Source of the DNA: Sporopachydermia quercuum
Lineage: Eukaryota > Ascomycota > Sporopachydermiomycetes > Sporopachydermiales > Sporopachydermiaceae
Assembly (NCBI GenBank): GCA_001599295.1
Contig: BCGN01000001.1
Location: 62,001-126,000, forward strand
Length of the DNA: 64,000 bases
Reading direction: 5' to 3'
Both the position numbers and the translations under genes were made by a program. This document shows, piece by piece, positions 24,888-35,785 of the stretch (position 1 is the stretch's first letter; the number at the start of each line of letters is the position of its first letter). The notes beneath the pieces are model-generated. The model had not been told where the DNA came from, did no database searches, and saw nothing but the letters and a program-made list of their open reading frames with translations.

Positions 24888-25529
24888 CTAATCCCTGGAG
24901 CTGATAATAGCTCTCTTCAATCCACACCATCCAGTAGCAACCGCACCAATAACAGCTGATGAAATAGCCATTGGCCGCAGACCTTTAGTACTTCGGAAAA
25001 TGGCTCCCGAAATAAAACCAGCAGCAATAGAATTAAGATCATCATGTTTACCTCTAAATCCATCAATAGCACTGTTAACTAGATTGTAGATCATAGCACA
25101 TACACCAGCGCTGTTACCAATGAAAGGACCACGTCTAGTGATAGAGTTGAGCACAGTATTTATCTTCAGCTTGGTTGGTTGACCAGCTTTGATTGCAGAC
25201 AAACCTTCTGTTAAACCATAAGCACCACCAGTACCCAATCCCAGTAAATAAACCGTACCAGTACCGTAACAAAGATCATCGGTCCAACCTCTCGAAGGGA
25301 TGATAGCGTCATGTCCTTGTAATGTTGATAAACCATCATCTTCTAAATCCAAAAACTCTAAATCTTTGCCAACTCCTGCTAAAGGATGCAATTTTTCAAA
25401 GTCAACAGATTGTGAAAGAAATGAGTTAACATCTTGAACTGCTGAAGGATCAAATCCTAATGCTTGTGAAGACCCTGTTTCAGAGATGGTCTCTTCCTTC
25501 TTTTTACTACCGCCTAAAAGCCACGACAT
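24888..25529 (-). CDS. TIM23: Mitochondrial inner-membrane translocase subunit Tim23
   Basis: 213 codons, close to the 222 aa of S. cerevisiae Tim23. The hydrophilic intermembrane-space half (residues 1-95) has the conserved LHPLAGVGKDLEFLDLED segment and a helical stretch (VQDVNSFLSQSVDF) used for dimerisation and presequence binding. The C-terminal half has about four hydrophobic segments of the Tim17/22/23 family, with the GxxxG-type TGGAYGLTEG and RRGPFIGNSAGVCAMIYNL signatures. It forms the channel core of the presequence translocase in the inner membrane. The start is the only ATG and fits the family N-terminus. It faces SMM1 tail to tail. Confidence 0.95.
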   Translation of the reverse strand: MSWLLGGSKKKEETISETGSSQALGFDPSAVQDVNSFLSQSVDFEKLHPLAGVGKDLEFLDLEDDGLSTLQGHDAIIPSRGWTDDLCYGTGTVYLLGLGTGGAYGLTEGLSAIKAGQPTKLKINTVLNSITRRGPFIGNSAGVCAMIYNLVNSAIDGFRGKHDDLNSIAAGFISGAIFRSTKGLRPMAISSAVIGAVATGWCGLKRAIISSRD

Positions 25530-26861: not shown

Positions 26862-28550
26862 CTCAGCCCTAGCTAATCAGACAATCTAGATTCACTTGTC
26901 AATCTTGACACTAGCGATCTTTCCCTATAAAGCTGGTTTTATTAGAAACGCATATATCCTCTCATCACTGGAAATTAATACCCCAGTTTTACGGCTCCTG
27001 CCTTTTGATACAAGATCTCGTCTTGCTTGAATGATGATGATTCCCTTGAACAATTTAGTTTTTTTTCAGTACTTGTAGTTTTCACCAAAATGTGTTTTCG
27101 ATCCGTCTGTACAAATCTAATTGAACGATCTTGTATTAAATTTCCAATTCACTTAACACATCATTATTTAAGATTATCTATCTGCCCTTGATTTCTAGCA
27201 TTATCTACTCATCTCTTTCAATTACTTGGTAATATTCTCTTTATCGCCGATTCGTTGGGCATAAATTATAAGAGAAAATGTTGGGGTCCTAATAACGGAC
27301 TCTGTCCGAGTGTCCTAATAGTAGTCCTGTTTAACTTGGTGTTGCGTTTGACTAAGCGGGGAAAACTGCATAAAAAATAGAAAATGCGATTATTTTGTAT
27401 GAGTTTGGTTATTTATAATATAAGATGTGCCTACTTTGGGAACTATTCTACTATTTAATTAGAAGCAAATAATGCTGAATGGTTAGGAAACAGTATAACA
27501 TATTTACATGAGGCTATTATTAACGGTTGTGAGCTTTGCTTTGAATAAGATGCATGTGGGAATATGTGATGTTGAAAAACATGCATAATACTGCATGCTG
27601 ATAAAAACGGAGATGTCATCTAGAGACTACTATAATAACAACAACGAGACACCAAAAACAATTTTTATTTCACACTTTTTTTAAATAGGTACGAATATTA
27701 TCCCTCTAATAAGGAGGTGCNATAATTAATACACCCCAATATCAACAATTAGATCAACTTCTACCGACCAAACCCTTTGAATTCGACACGCCCTCCAGAT
27801 TCGTCTAGTGCTGTCCTACATATCATGCATGAAATCCTAAACCCAATTCATATTTCCAGTCTCCAGTATGCCCCCTATAGATTCTTTCAGTTCTTCATAT
27901 ATCTCCATCTTCACACCACATACAACTAGTTACTGCTCTTCATACAATCTCCTCTTATTCCATTAATCTATATTTCCACTTTCAATCTTGCAACAATTTT
28001 ATTTCACATCTTCCTTTTTTCCTTTCGTTGCCTATAAAAATCTGTTCGACATTCATCCCACCACTCGTATATCAAGCTGCCAAACTCAATTTCTGTTGGC
28101 TCTCCATGTAATTGTTAAAGTTGATTTCCCGGTTTTTGAAATACATTTTATTCCGTACACATACCATTTCGCAATCGTTTATTTACAGCATTTCTTCAAA
28201 AAAACGTCATCAACAGTGTCAATTTCTACTATATTTCTCNTGTTTGAGGAGAATTGTCTCTAGAGAATCAGCTCTGTATTGCCCTAATTTCAACCTAATG
28301 AAGACATAAGAAGCCGGGCTGCGCTTCATTGTACCTTAAACACTCCTTCCGTTCACTCTCTTCCTATGTAACCAATACGGTAAGCGTAAGCCTCCCATTT
28401 CCTCACGCGTCCGTTAAGCGTTTCATTAAGTTGGTTTCGAGCGACACGTAAGAATGAAAAATATGATATACGGGAATAGAAACGTAGTTTCACTATAAAC
28501 AATCTTTCCAGCTAACAAGTAATGTATTATTGGATTAATTGCTACAGTTT

Positions 28551-28558
28551 TATATATA
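28551..28558 (+). promoter_or_regulatory. Candidate TATA element of ACC1
   Basis: TATATATA lies 140 bp before the start of the AUG-less extension (28691) and 520 bp before the first ATG (29078). With usual yeast spacing, transcripts would begin before 28691 and so include the whole extension. Confidence 0.35.
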
Positions 28559-28690
28559 CTAAGACTAGTACTGTACTTGTTGTATTCTGTTCGTCTTCCT
28601 CTATATCCAGGTTGTATCACAGGTTCGATAGCTTTTCCGTTCTCATTTCTCAACACATCTTACTGTTGGTGTTTTCCCATTGTCCATTAA

Positions 28691-29077
28691 ATTACCTTAG
28701 ACTGTATCAAGTTGTTGTTTGACAAATCATTAAACGCAACGCGATACTTGAGCCTTTACAAGGTTGGGATTAACAATAGAAATAAAAGTGATTCTACGGT
28801 GCTAAGAAGGAAACTGCATGATATCGGGTTGACATTGTATTTCAAAAGTTCAGTACCAGTATCAGTATCAGCATCTTATTTGCATTGGTTCAATATTGGA
28901 AACCTGAGATTGAAATCGACATCATCAACATCGAAATCAATATTAACCGCAAGATTACCATTTGTATATAACTATAGCTATAACTATAACTTGAAGGGTA
29001 ATTGTCTCAGCAGTCGATTTGGAACCCCATCTAATAACCATTCAATCCACACAACACCTACAACACAAGCAGCAAAT
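28691..29077 (+). other. In-frame AUG-less N-terminal extension of ACC1 (candidate mitochondrial presequence)
   Basis: Between the in-frame TAA at 28688-28690 and the ATG at 29078, 129 codons are open in the ACC1 frame, with no ATG among them. The translation is rich in S, N, Y, L, R and K and poor in acids (for example [12 protein letters not shown], then [13 protein letters not shown]), like a mitochondrial presequence. Possible starts are ATT at 28691, TTG at 28712 (A at -3), TTG at 28715 and ACG at 28742. S. cerevisiae HFA1 reaches mitochondria through a comparable non-AUG-initiated leader. I see no convincing branch point and 3' splice site that would attach an upstream ATG exon. Confidence 0.6.
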
Positions 29078-32000
29078 ATGGCTTCAGTGATTTACTCCCA
29101 CGATAAACTGCCTCCCCATTTCATTGGGTTGAACACTATTGATCGGGCTGAACCAGGACCAGTTCGTGAATTTGTTCAGTCTCATGGCGGTCATACTGTT
29201 ATCACCAAGGTTCTTATTGCGAATAATGGTATTGCTGCTGTTAAAATGATTCGCTCAGTTCGAAAATGGGCTTACGAAACATTCAATAACGAAAAAGCTA
29301 TTCAATTTGTCGCCATGGCCACTCCTGAAGATTTGGAAGCCAATGCCGATTACATTAGAATGGCTGACCAATACATTGAAGTCCCCGGTGGAACTAATAA
29401 TAATAATTATGCTAACGTTGAACTTATTGTTGACGTTGCTGAAAGAACCGACGTTAATGCTGTTTGGGCCGGTTGGGGTCATGCTTCAGAAAACCCAAAA
29501 TTGCCAGAAATGCTGGCCGCTTCTCCAAAGAGAATCCTNTTCATTGGTCCTCCTGGTTCCGCTATGCGCTCTTTAGGTGATAAAATCTCTTCTACTATTG
29601 TTGCTCAGCATGCCAAGGTCCCCTGTATTCCATGGTCTGGTACTGGTGTTGAGGAAGTTTTAGTTGACGAAAAGACTAATCTAGTATCAGTTACTGATGA
29701 GGTATATCAAAAGGGATGTTGTACATCTCCACAAGATGGTTTGAAAAAGGCCAAAGAAATTGGTTTTCCTATTATGATTAAAGCCTCTGAAGGTGGTGGT
29801 GGTAAAGGTATTCGGAAGGTCGAGAGAGAAGAAGATTTTTTATTAATGTATGATCAAGCAGCATCCGAGATTCCTGGTTCACCGATTTTCATTATGCAGT
29901 TGGCTGGTGATGCCCGTCATTTAGAAGTACAATTACTTGCTGATGAATACGGTAATAATATTTCCTTGTTTGGTCGTGACTGCTCTGTTCAAAGAAGACA
30001 TCAAAAGATTATCGAAGAAGCCCCAGTAACTATAGCCAAACCTGATACTTTCACAGCTATGGAAAAAGCTGCAGTTAGATTGGGTAAATTAGTAGGCTAT
30101 GTTTCTGCTGGTACTGTCGAATACCTTTACTCTTATAAGGACGACAAGTTTTACTTCTTAGAGCTGAATCCTCGTTTACAAGTAGAACATCCTACTACCG
30201 AAATGGTCACCGGTGTGAATTTACCTGCCGCTCAATTACAAATTGCCATGGGTATCCCGTTACATCGAGTAAGAGACATTAGATTGTTATATGGTGTTGA
30301 TCCTCATACTGCTACCGAAATTGACTTTGAATTCTCCACTGAATTATCTAAGAAGACCCAAAGAAAACCTGTGCCCAAGGGACACACCACTGCTTGTCGT
30401 ATTACTTCTGAAGACCCTGGCGAGGGATTCAAGCCTTCTAGTGGTATGATGCATGAGCTGAACTTCCGATCGAGTTCTAACGTTTGGGGTTATTTCTCTG
30501 TCAGTAACCAGGGTGGAATTCATTCGTTTTCTGACTCACAATTTGGTCACATTTTTGCCTTTGGTGAAAATCGTCAAGCCTCTCGTAAACATATGGTTGT
30601 AGCTCTAAAGGAGTTGAGCATTAGAGGTGATTTCAGAACTACTGTCGAATACTTGATCAAGTTGTTAGAAACACCAGCTTTTGAAGGGAATAAGATCACA
30701 ACTGGTTGGCTTGATGAATTAATCTCTAAGAAGCTCACCGCTGAAAGGCCCGACTCACACTTGGCAGTTATTTGTGGTGCAGTCACTAAAGCGCACATTG
30801 CTTATGATGAAAGCATCAAAGGCTATATTAACTCTTTAGAAAGAGGTCAGGTATCACCTGCAGACACTCTCAAGACGATTTTCCCGGTGGATTTCATTTA
30901 TGAAGGTGTTAAATACAAGTTCACTGCTACCAAGTCATCCTTAGATACATATACATTATTTGTCAATGGAAGTAAATGCCAGGTTGGTGTTCGAGCTCTT
31001 GCTGATAGCGGTTTATTGATATCCATTGGTGGTAAGTCCCATAATGTGTACTGGAAGAAGGAAGCTGCTGGCACGAGATTGTCTGTTGATTCAATGACCT
31101 GTTTATTAGAAGTTGAATCCGATCCAACCCAGTTGAAGACACCATCTCCTGGTAAGCTGGTTAAGTATTTAGTAGAAAATGGTGATCATATCAAGGCAGG
31201 TCAACCTTTTGCTGAAGTGGAGGTGATGAAGATGTTCATGCCTTTAGTTGCTCAAGAAGACGGTATTGTCCAGCTAATCAAACAGCCAGGATCAACTCTG
31301 AATGCTGGTGATATATTGGCTATTTTGGCTTTAGACGATCCTTCAAAGGTGAAACATGCTTTGCCCTATGAAGGCACCTTACCGGAATTTGGAGCTCCTA
31401 AGATTTCTGGTGATAAGCCTTCTCAGAAATACAGATTGTTATATTCTACTTTAGAGAACATTCTTATGGGTTTTGACAATCAAGTCGTGATGAAGCCAAC
31501 ATTAGCGGCTTTGATTGAAGTATTAAGAGACCCTGAATTACCTTACTCATCATGGCTTGCAAAAGTGTCTGCTTTACACAGCAGATTACCGGCCGAGTTA
31601 GATGCCACTTTGAACAGTTTAGTGGAGAAAGCAAGCCACCGAAAGGTTGAGTTCCCCGCTAAGCAAATATTAAAAGCCATTAAGAAGTTTGCTGCTGAAC
31701 AAAAAGTGGATCATGCATTCAAAGATGCTGTTGCACCATTGATTGAAATCGCCGAAGAATTCTCTGAAGGTTTACTTGTTCATGAGTATAAAGTATTTGC
31801 TGGCTTACTAGAAGAATACTATAAAGTTGAGCAGTTATTCTGTGGACAAAATGTTCGTGATGACGATGTTATTTTGAGGCTTCGTGACGAAAATAAGGAT
31901 GATCTATTCAAGGTTGTGTTGACAGTGTTATCACACTCTAAATGCAGTTCAAAGAACAACTTGATTCTTGCTATTCTTAATGAGTATCAACCATCAAAAA

Positions 32001-35000
32001 TTAATCACGGTAATGTCTCAACATACTTCAAACCTGTGTTAAAGAAGTTTGTTGAACTAGAATCTCGATCGTCAGCTAAAGTTGTTTTNAAAGCAAGAGA
32101 AATCCTTATTCAATGCGCGTTACCTTCTTTGAAAGAACGCAGTGATCAATTAGAGCATATTTTGAAATCATCAGTGATGGAAACGAGCTATGGATCTGTT
32201 GGTTTATCTCATCGATCACCTGAATTCGAGGTGCTGAAAGACGTTATTGATTCCAAATTCACAGTTTTTGACGTGTTATCGCAATTCTTAAACCATTCTG
32301 ATCCTTATGTAGCCATTGCTGCTATGGAAGTGTATGTGAGAAGAGCTTACAGGGCTTATATCGTTAGTGATATCAAGTATATCAATGACGATGAAGGTGC
32401 CCCTGTTATCAACTGGAAGTTCAAGTTACCAACGTTAGCTGCTGCTGCTTATAATGCAGTTGCTCCTAATGCTATTCGAACTGGTCAAGGCAATATGGGA
32501 AGAGCATTATCGGTGTCGGATTTGACTTATGTTAGTACTGGTAATAAGTCCGATAGCGAGCCAATGAGAAATGGTGTTATTACTGCTGCTTCTCATATCG
32601 ATGAGTTGGATGAAGCTCTATCAAGGGCTTTGGACGCTACCCCGAAGAAATCGTTGTCTATCAATGCTGTTCGCAACAATATTCTGAACCCAAGAGATNC
32701 TCGTGACAATTCGCCTCCTATCAGTGCTAAGGAGCTGACGAATGTCTGTAATGTTGTTATTAGTAGTATTGATGGTTATGAAACTGACGCTGATGTGTTA
32801 GATAAGATTCAAGAATTCATAAAGGATGCTAAAGATGATTTACTTGCTGGCTCCATCAGAAGATTGACTTTTGTTCTAGCCAATGATTTAGGTAAATACC
32901 CNAAGTACTATACTTTCCGTGGTCCTGAATACAAAGAAGATAAGGCAATTAGACATATTGAACCAGCTTTGGCGTATCAATTGGAACTTCGAAGACTTTC
33001 CAACTTTAACATCAAGCCAGTTTTTACTGACAATAGAAACATTCATGTATATGAAGCTGTTGCTAAGAATTCCAGCACTGATAAGCGGTTCTTTACTAGA
33101 GGTATTGTTCGACCTGGCAANATCCGTGATGACATTACTACTGCTGAATATCTTATTTCTGAGGCTGATAGATTGATGAGTGATATTTTGGATGCTTTAG
33201 AAGTTATTGGCACAACCAACTCTGATCTTAACCATATTTTCATCAACTTCTCTGCTGTGTTCAGTCTTGTTCCTGAAGAGGTTGAAGCTGCTTTTGGTGG
33301 ATTCTTGGAAAGATTTGGTAGAAGGTTATGGAGATTAAGAGTCACTGCTGCTGAAATTAGAATCATGTGTACTGACCCTGCCACAGGTGTTCCTTTCCCC
33401 TTAAGAGCCATGATTAACAATGTATCTGGTTATGTTGTAACCAGTGAATTATACGTTGAAGCCAAAAACTCTGATGGAGAATGGGTTTTCAAGTCTCTCG
33501 GTAGGCCTGGTAGTATGCATATGAGAAGTATCTCAACTCCTTATCCTACAAAGGAGTGGCTACAACCCAAAAGATACAGTGCTCATTTGATGGGGACCAC
33601 TTACTGCTATGATTTCCCTGAATTGTTCCGACAGGCTGTTTTATCCTCTTGGCATAATTACAACTCCAAAGCTAAAATTCCTGATGATTTTTTCTCATAT
33701 AAGGAATTAATTCTTGAGCAAGGAACTGAACTTTCTGAAGTNTCAAGGGAACCTGGGGCCAATACTTGTGGTATGGTTGCTTGGAAGTTGTTCATGAAAA
33801 CACCGGAATACCCACGGGGAAGAGAGATTATTGTTGTTGCTAATGATATCACTTTTAAGATTGGTTCCTTTGGTCCCGAAGAAGATAAGATGTTCAACAA
33901 GGTAACTGAATTCGCTAGAGAGTTAGGAATTCCCAGAATCTACTTGTCAGCGAACTCCGGTGCACGAATTGGTATTGCCGATGAGCTTATCCCATTGTTC
34001 TCAGTTGCATGGAATGATGCTGAAAACCCTGATAGGGGCTTCAGATACTTATACCTTACTCCTGATGTAAAGAAGAGTATGGATAAGCAAAATGTCACTT
34101 CTTGTATTACTACTAAGATTGTTGAAGATGGTGAGGAAAGATATAGAATTGATGCTATNGTTGGTGCTGAAGACGGTCTTGGTGTTGAATGTTTAAGAGG
34201 ATCAGGTCTTATTGCTGGTGCTACTTCTCGGGCATACAAAGACATTTTCACAATTACCTTGGTCACTTGTAGATCTGTTGGTATTGGTGCTTATTTAGTC
34301 AGATTAGGTCAAAGAGCCATTCAAATTGAAGGTCAGCCTATTATCTTGACTGGTGCTCCAGCCATCAATAAATTATTGGGTAGAGATGTATATAGTAGTA
34401 ATTTGCAACTGGGTGGCACCCAAATCATGTACAGAAATGGTGTTTCTCACTTGACTGCTAATGATGATTTAGAAGGTGTTGAGCAAATCGTTGAATGGCT
34501 GTCTTATGTTCCTTCAAAGAAGGGTATGCCTGTTCCCGTGTTAGAATCAGAAGACACTTGGGACAGGGATGTGGACTACATACCTATCAAAAGTGAACCT
34601 TATGATGTCCGTTGGTTAATTTCTGGCAGAGAAACTGAAGATGGATTTGAATATGGTTTGTTTGATAAGGGATCCTTTAGAGAAACATTAGGTGGATGGG
34701 CTAAGGGTGTTGTGGTTGGCCGCGCAAGATTAGGTGGTATACCTATTGGTATAATTGGAGTTGAAACTAAGACAATTGAGAACTTATCACCTGCTGATCC
34801 TGCTAATCCCGGCTCAACTGAGAATCTAATTCAAGAAGCTGGTCAAGTTTGGTATCCTAACTCTGCTTTCAAGACCGCCCAAGCTATCAATGATTTCAAC
34901 AATGGTGAGGAGTTACCATTGATGATCTTAGCCAACTGGAGAGGTTTCTCTGGTGGTCAAAGAGATATGTACAACGAAGTGTTAAAATACGGTTCGTTTA

Positions 35001-35785
35001 TTGTTGATGCCCTCGTTAACTTCAAGCAGCCAATTATGATTTATATTCCACCCACTGGTGAACTACGTGGTGGCTCATGGGTCGTTGTTGATCCAACCAT
35101 TAACCCTGATATGATGGAAATGTATGCTGACTATGAATCAAGAGCCGGTGTCTTGGAACCAGAAGGAATGGTTGGTATTAAATATAGAAGAGAGAAGTTG
35201 ATTAGGACAATGTCCAGATTAGATGCAAAATACAAGGAACTGAAGAGCAAGATTGAGAACAGTGAAACACCTGCTGAAGAACTTTCTAAATTAAAGGCAG
35301 CCCTTGTCGAAAGAGAAAAGGAATTGTATCCTATTTATCAACAAATATCTGTTCAGTTTGCTGATTTGCACGATAGAGCTGATAGAATGGTTGCCAAGGG
35401 TGCTATCAGAAAGGCTCTCAAGTGGAGAGATTCTCGAAGATTCTTCTTCTGGAGATTGAGAAGACGTTTGAATGAAGAATACTTGTTGAAGAGAATTGCT
35501 ACTGCTTTACCTAGATCTACTAGACTCGAAAGGGTTGCCAGACTCAAGTCCTGGTATCCTGGTAAAATCGATCTCAATAACGACCAAGAGGTTGCTCTAT
35601 GGATCGAAGAAAATCATTTGGCTATTGATGACCTTGTCAAGAGCTTGCAATCTGATTCTGTTCATCAGTTCGTTGAAACCTATGTTCGCCTGAATAGAGC
35701 CAATGCCCTTGAAGGTCTTGCTAAGGCCTTGAAGAATTTCAGCCCTGAAGAACAAGAAGAATTGTTCAGAGCTGTGCAAAACTGA
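29078..35785 (+). CDS. ACC1: Acetyl-CoA carboxylase (biotin-dependent, multidomain)
   Basis: From ATG 29078 the product is 2235 aa, against 2233 for S. cerevisiae Acc1, and colinear with it. It carboxylates acetyl-CoA to malonyl-CoA, the first committed step of fatty-acid synthesis. Biotin carboxylase (about 1-560) shows [15 protein letters not shown] and [16 protein letters not shown]. The biotin carrier motif EVMKMFMP has the biotinylated lysine near residue 718. The central region keeps the Snf1 site context [10 protein letters not shown] (Ser near 1145, equivalent to Ser1157). The carboxyltransferase halves follow (about 1480-2170), with [13 protein letters not shown] and [20 protein letters not shown] codons at 29513 and 30164 encode conserved Leu. 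The open frame continues upstream for 129 codons without an ATG (see the extension entry), which would give a longer mitochondrial form. Six N bases lie in the gene, all silent as to frame. Confidence 0.97.

Follow-up and report, generated by a model that had tools for sequence, protein, structure and literature searches.

We analysed a window of 64,000 bases (G000:C1:62001-126000) from a yeast genome of 16.39 Mb in 12 contigs; positions at the ACC1 locus are counted from the first base of this window. On the forward strand, an open reading frame (ORF) of 2235 codons runs from ATG 29078 to 35785 and encodes ACC1, an acetyl-CoA carboxylase (ACC). Its match to S. cerevisiae acetyl-CoA carboxylase (PDB 5csk) scored 3526 bits and covered residues 137 to 2362 of the 2364-residue query. 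The biotin carboxylase, BT, biotinyl, ACC central, and carboxyltransferase domains all lie in one chain, and with these domains ACC1 is a fungal multidomain acetyl-CoA carboxylase. Reading of CTG as serine was ruled out: at 9 of the 13 CTG codons in ACC1, at least 11 of 12 aligned yeast ACCs carry leucine, so CTG reads as leucine here. The window contains 58 single N positions (e.g., 29539, 32089, and 33742) that look like masked heterozygous sites, and six of the seven inside the ACC1 ORF fall at third codon positions. A gene of the Tim17/Tim22/Tim23/Pmp24 family occupies 24888 to 25529 on the minus strand, 3.2 kb upstream of the ACC1 extension described below.

Using the N-terminal 307 residues as a query, we found one full match in the genome, i.e., one ACC gene, in a search that scored only the best candidates of a possibly incomplete assembly. 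Eight other matches were 28 to 47% identical and covered only parts of the 307-residue N terminus. The genome also holds an MCT1-like gene, a 415-amino-acid frame that scores far below the cutoff of the bacterial fabD family. Two genes resembling ACP are present as well and score above their cutoff. Because of these three genes, mitochondrial fatty acid synthesis probably runs in this yeast, and it needs malonyl-CoA. With one ACC gene found and genes of the mitochondrial pathway present, a single gene probably serves both compartments.

Upstream of ATG 29078, the ACC1 frame is closed by a TAA at 28688 to 28690. The 387 bases that follow it (28691 to 29077, forward strand) form an in-frame extension of 129 sense codons with no in-frame ATG, just as the initial annotation had described, and we propose that this stretch is both a cryptic mitochondrial presequence and the 5′ leader of a cytosolic form. 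When these 387 bases were put through 20,000 dinucleotide shuffles, frame 1 stayed open in a fraction of 0.0003, and at least one of the three forward frames did so in 0.0009. The two remaining forward frames of the extension contain 9 and 13 stops.

ATGs are scarce here in every frame. The extension contains one ATG in any frame, whereas 5,000 shuffles averaged 8.1 (P = 0.0002), and from 28558, the end of a possible TATA element, to ATG 29078 the count is one compared to 9.3 (P = 0.0004). The sole ATG opens an out-of-frame ORF of four codons (28818 to 28832, forward strand) and has a T at −3. One ATG or fewer per 387 nucleotides (nt) was found in 18% (7/38) of the regions upstream of other ORFs' ATGs, compared to 0.4% of 225 coding windows and 3% of 32 coding windows without an in-frame ATG. 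Since scarcity of this kind is more frequent upstream of ATGs than in coding sequence, the extension looks scanned by ribosomes, as a model with two start sites needs.

The same scarcity, being common upstream of genes, also suits a rival explanation in which the extension is a long 5′ untranslated leader, open by chance, and no mitochondrial form is made. Codon usage points the same way. The codon-usage score of the extension was −0.066; 4% of 46 coding N termini scored equally low, while 23% of 12,516 overlapping intergenic windows scored as high, a result that is inconclusive to negative and not coding-like. A homologue search with ACC1 residues 1 to 150 returned nothing at an E value of ≤10 among 422 candidates, which is likewise in keeping with an untranslated leader. 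Set against this rival are the open frame (P = 0.0003) and the finding of one ACC gene in a genome that nevertheless has genes resembling those of mitochondrial fatty acid synthesis. We consider it improbable that the extension is only an untranslated leader. A search for a second copy of the extension in the genome returned only the extension itself. DNA of relatives was also sought in bacterial genome contigs, and the two matches were both bacterial loci and were discarded.

The initial annotation had called the leader basic, hydroxylated, and acid poor. Its composition bears this out, with 16 K/R, 4 D, no E, and 31 S/T among 129 residues, but the bias is modest compared to that of shuffled sequence (net charge, P = 0.15; acids, P = 0.05). 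All four acids lie in the first 45 residues and none in residues 45 to 129 (the last 85), giving an acid-free run of 93 residues when the start of ACC1 is included. Among translated intergenic frames of 85 codons or more, from which ORFs of at least 300 codons had been excluded although shorter genes surely remain, 6 of 148 had an acid-free run of at least 85 residues, as did 3 of 46 coding ORFs.

To place these values, we used the leaders of ACC homologues, defined as at least 25 residues ahead of the presumed cytosolic start. Such leaders were present in 27 of the 120 homologues listed out of 3943 (25 after removal of near duplicates); they were 38 to 98 residues long, K/R rich, and acid poor, and were taken with the M start as given in what are mostly predicted proteins. 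On average, the 25 leaders contained 17% K/R, 1% D/E, and 18% S/T, compared to 12%, 3%, and 24% for the extension. The composition score of the extension was 0.013, lower than that of any of the 25 leaders (mean, 0.149; standard deviation [SD], 0.070). Translated intergenic frames, from which ORFs of at least 300 codons had been removed but which surely still contain shorter genes, averaged −0.188 (SD, 0.151; n = 801), and 6.6% of them scored as high as the extension. The last 58 codons, counted from CTG 28904, scored 0.156, like a homologous leader, with a cut chosen after the data had been seen. The maximal hydrophobic moment of the extension, 0.46, sits at its very start and compares to a mean of 0.48 in the 25 leaders. 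These comparisons suggest a presequence character that is moderate only, and this also leaves some room for the untranslated leader.

Ahead of the extension, the forward strand carries TATATATA at 28551 to 28558, a possible TATA element. The initial annotation had used it to set the transcript start before the extension. Its position, 140 bp upstream, is correct; as promoter evidence it is weak, since the octamer occurs 10 times on the forward strand of the window. This element lies inside an ORF of 66 codons in another frame, which starts at ATG 28522, ends at 28722, and so runs into the first part of the extension. In principle, that ORF could be linked to the extension by frameshifting, by an allele not seen here, or by an indel that escaped detection, and the single N positions do suggest a heterozygous source. 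We regard such a link as very improbable. The codon score of the 66-codon ORF is −0.305, strongly noncoding, the possible TATA element falls within it, and there is no N in 28691 to 29077. For HFA1 of S. cerevisiae, Suomi et al. found frameshifting unnecessary (PMC4263661).

For initiation within the extension itself, four near-cognate codons on the forward strand are candidates. ATT 28691 (28691 to 28693) is the first codon of the open frame; it has a poor context, with T at −3, and the best amphipathicity of the upstream candidates. TTG 28712 (28712 to 28714), which is followed by another TTG at 28715, is the first near-cognate codon with A at −3 if AAG is set aside. An ACG with G at −3 lies at 28739 to 28741; the initial annotation had given correct positions for ATT and both TTGs but had put this ACG at 28742, which reads CGA. 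CTG 28904 (28904 to 28906), with A at −3, is the alternative start of a 58-residue acid-free leader. Over the first 25 residues, the maximal hydrophobic moment is 0.46 from ATT 28691, 0.23 from TTG 28712, 0.26 from ACG 28739, and 0.17 from CTG 28904. Thus, context favours TTG 28712 and CTG 28904, while helix amphipathicity favours ATT 28691 and not TTG 28712. RNA hairpins that might promote a start near these codons were sought by folding, and the folds were ordinary compared to those of shuffles (z, −1.4 to 0.1). In S. cerevisiae ALA1, TTG, CTG, ACG, and ATT were reported to give about half of ATG activity, with TTG among the better non-ATG starts (PMC2909995).

The main rival to a non-AUG start is splicing, because this yeast has introns. 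Here, the extension or its last part would be an exon joined to an upstream exon that carries an ATG, and the mitochondrial form would start at an AUG. The initial annotation had named such an exon as grounds for rejecting its own proposal. We examined the splice signals of this genome in six introns of actin-family genes, inspected by eye. The donors, identified for all but the intron of actin itself, included GTATGT, GTAAGT, and GTGAGT. The branch motif was CTAAC in four introns, TTAAC in one, and probably CTAAT in one, followed by YAG.

We then compared ACC1 to an ORF sample drawn from the window and 20 stretches of 10 kb (264 kb in all), which contained 46 nonoverlapping ORFs of at least 300 codons, 40 of them with a closed 5′ end. 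ATG-free extensions of at least 40 codons preceded 8 of the 40, and seven of these eight carried CTAAC followed by YAG at a distance of 3 to 45 nt; ACC1 was the one without. The signature was present in 2 of the 32 ORFs with shorter extensions, and its chance rate was 0.23 for a 387-nt window of intergenic sequence and 0.16 for a coding window. Although the motif came originally from the actin-family introns, the count was devised after the same extensions had been viewed. By the CTAAC motif, ACC1 is the exception among the long extensions. Since seven of the eight bear the signature, long ATG-free extensions in this genome probably often represent a 5′ exon that is spliced, and introns close to the start of genes may be frequent in this yeast. 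The count covered the branch and acceptor signals of the seven ORFs (L024, L029, L012, L011, L015, L023, and L020), of which only L020, L024, L012, and L015 resemble second exons on visual inspection. The sample also bears on the untranslated leader, in that, among the other 39 ORFs, every ATG-free extension of at least 40 codons carries the CTAAC signature.

A relaxed branch motif (CTAAC, CTAAT, or TTAAC) changes the picture. With it, all eight ORFs with long extensions have an acceptor, so ACC1 no longer stands out; its own three acceptors end at 28779, 28977, and 29072. Strict CTAAC is absent between 28517 and 29078. The only copy in 27600 to 29078 is at 28512, and it is unable to supply an in-frame ATG because its YAGs, 31 and 52 bases downstream, precede TAA 28688. 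We also enumerated models in which an ATG exon is spliced in frame to the extension. None was found with intron-like donors or close variants (sets A and B) in a run from 27600 on with introns of up to 900 bases, and none with the strict and medium donor sets in a run from 27000 on with introns of up to 1,200 bases. Allowing any GT[AG]N[GT] donor yielded nine models in the former run and one in the latter, with donors GTACTG, GTAATT, and GTATTA.

Yarrowia lipolytica, which we take to be in the same broad group as Nadsonia, also bears on the splicing alternative. Its ACC1 (YALI0C11407g), a single ACC as in the yeast studied here, has a putative mitochondrial targeting sequence (MTS) that, unlike the leader proposed here, lies inside the annotated ORF (Table 4 of PMC4263661), and the tagged protein was described as punctate and partly overlapping mitochondria (PMC5210315). 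An AUG-started mitochondrial form would have a parallel there, and the introns of this genome, the CTAAC signature of the other seven long extensions, and the relaxed acceptors in ACC1 all lend the splicing alternative some weight. It is disfavoured by the lack of a strict branch motif, by the need for a donor as loose as GT[AG]N[GT], and by an ATG scarcity that is unlike that of a plain coding exon. On balance, we judge splicing of an ATG exon into the extension to be unlikely, although less so than an untranslated leader.

Taken together, the open frame, the scarcity of ATGs, and the single ACC gene are best accounted for by one gene with two starts, as the initial annotation had proposed. 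In our view, ACC1 probably gives rise, from one mRNA, to a putative mitochondrial form that begins at a non-AUG codon and to a cytosolic form that begins at ATG 29078. We infer from the sequence that the region is transcribed, that translation starts within it, and that the longer product is imported. Scanning ribosomes would occasionally initiate within the extension at a near-cognate codon, which would be TTG 28712 if context decides or ATT 28691 if the helix does, with ACG 28739 and CTG 28904 as further possibilities. ACC1 made in this way would have a mitochondrial presequence at its N terminus. As AUG is nearly absent from the leader, the remaining ribosomes would continue to ATG 29078 and produce the cytosolic enzyme. 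The mitochondrial form would then supply malonyl-CoA for mitochondrial fatty acid synthesis and, through it, for lipoate.

The initial annotation had invoked HFA1 and the use of a single gene for both compartments in other yeasts as precedents. Initiation of HFA1, the mitochondrial acetyl-CoA carboxylase of S. cerevisiae, was mapped to an AUU at −372 (Suomi et al. 2014, PMC4263661). HFA1 and the ACC1 gene studied here are alike in having an in-frame leader before the ACC (124 codons from the AUU compared to 129) and upstream in-frame ATGs that are ended by stops (28454 and 28463 here). They differ in that HFA1 is a mitochondria-serving paralogue with an experimentally mapped start codon, whereas here one gene is proposed for both compartments and the start codons are candidates from sequence. 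Another close system is K. lactis, whose ACC (KLLA0F06072g) rescued an hfa1 deletion with its leader and failed without it (PMC4263661). As in K. lactis, we find one ACC gene and an ATG-free, in-frame open stretch, a cryptic upstream leader, ahead of the cytosolic ATG. Rescue of hfa1 was shown for K. lactis; ACC1 here is known from its sequence and groups with the ACCs of Nadsonia, Blastobotrys, and Trichomonascus. Suomi et al. also predicted cryptic leaders for other yeasts with a single ACC, and upstream leaders for K. waltii, A. gossypii, and P. pastoris (PMC4263661). Two products from one gene had been proposed by Turunen et al. in 2008 (PMC2704937).

In a FastTree phylogeny of 37 ACC proteins (ACC1 and 36 chosen from the 120 listed homologues), ACC1 grouped with Nadsonia, Blastobotrys, Trichomonascus, and two further sequences with a support of 1.0, as sister to the other five. 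Nadsonia ACC begins with MASG, and the alignment places this start 10 residues further upstream, so it supports ATG 29078 as the cytosolic start only weakly. Cryptic mitochondrial proteins were reportedly treated by Monteuuis et al. in 2019. The two-start ACC mechanism is already described in other yeasts, and ACC1 here is a further candidate case. A literature search returned no report of this case; it was run without a species name and is therefore no test of novelty.

ACC must be biotinylated by BPL1. We examined BPL1 together with the glycyl- and alanyl-tRNA synthetases (GlyRS and AlaRS), all three picked from the literature. The BPL1 gene (L042; G000:C7:621001-626500) has an ATG-free in-frame extension of 52 codons, from 622562 to ATG 622718, and MNVLVYNG, which we take to be the conserved BPL1 start, is at codon 67. 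Neither the CTAAC nor the relaxed motif gave an acceptor in the BPL1 extension, and its composition score of −0.106 is several SD under the mean of the homologous ACC leaders. A cryptic MTS was predicted for S. cerevisiae BPL1 (Tables 5 and 6 of PMC4263661). In GlyRS (L049; G000:C8:1101601-1102250, minus strand), an ATG-free extension of 103 codons precedes MSATSV; none of the frames contains an ATG in these 309 nt, and the relaxed motif gives one acceptor where CTAAC gives none. The S. cerevisiae genes GRS1 (TTG) and ALA1 (ACG) each have two start sites, of which the upstream is non-AUG (PMC2909995; PMC4263661), a layout like that proposed for ACC1 but in different enzymes. The GlyRS leader here is ATG free, while the 41-codon AlaRS leader has an in-frame ATG. 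Splice signals aside, an ATG-free layout in two of three genes is only mildly unusual because 5 of 39 other ORFs have at least 52 ATG-free codons. The mitochondrial forms of ACC1, BPL1, and GlyRS might all arise from non-AUG starts and be tuned together by start codon stringency, as an ancestral regime and not as separate accidents, although we hold this broader idea to be doubtful at best.

To what is already described, this analysis adds a candidate case in the Nadsonia-Trichomonascus group, parallel layouts in BPL1 and GlyRS, and a splice control from within the genome that is clear with CTAAC and blurred with the relaxed motif. If the two-start reading of ACC1 is correct, the hidden mitochondrial leader of ACC extends to a yeast that groups with Nadsonia, Blastobotrys, and Trichomonascus, and annotation from the first ATG would overlook the mitochondrial isoform. 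This would lend support to Suomi et al., who regard a single gene with two starts as ancestral (PMC4263661), and, considered with Yarrowia, would suggest that the mitochondrial start shifts between AUG and non-AUG codons among related yeasts. Should the broader idea hold as well, mitochondrial malonyl-CoA, biotinylation, and glycyl-tRNA charging would be tuned together by the stringency of start codon selection.
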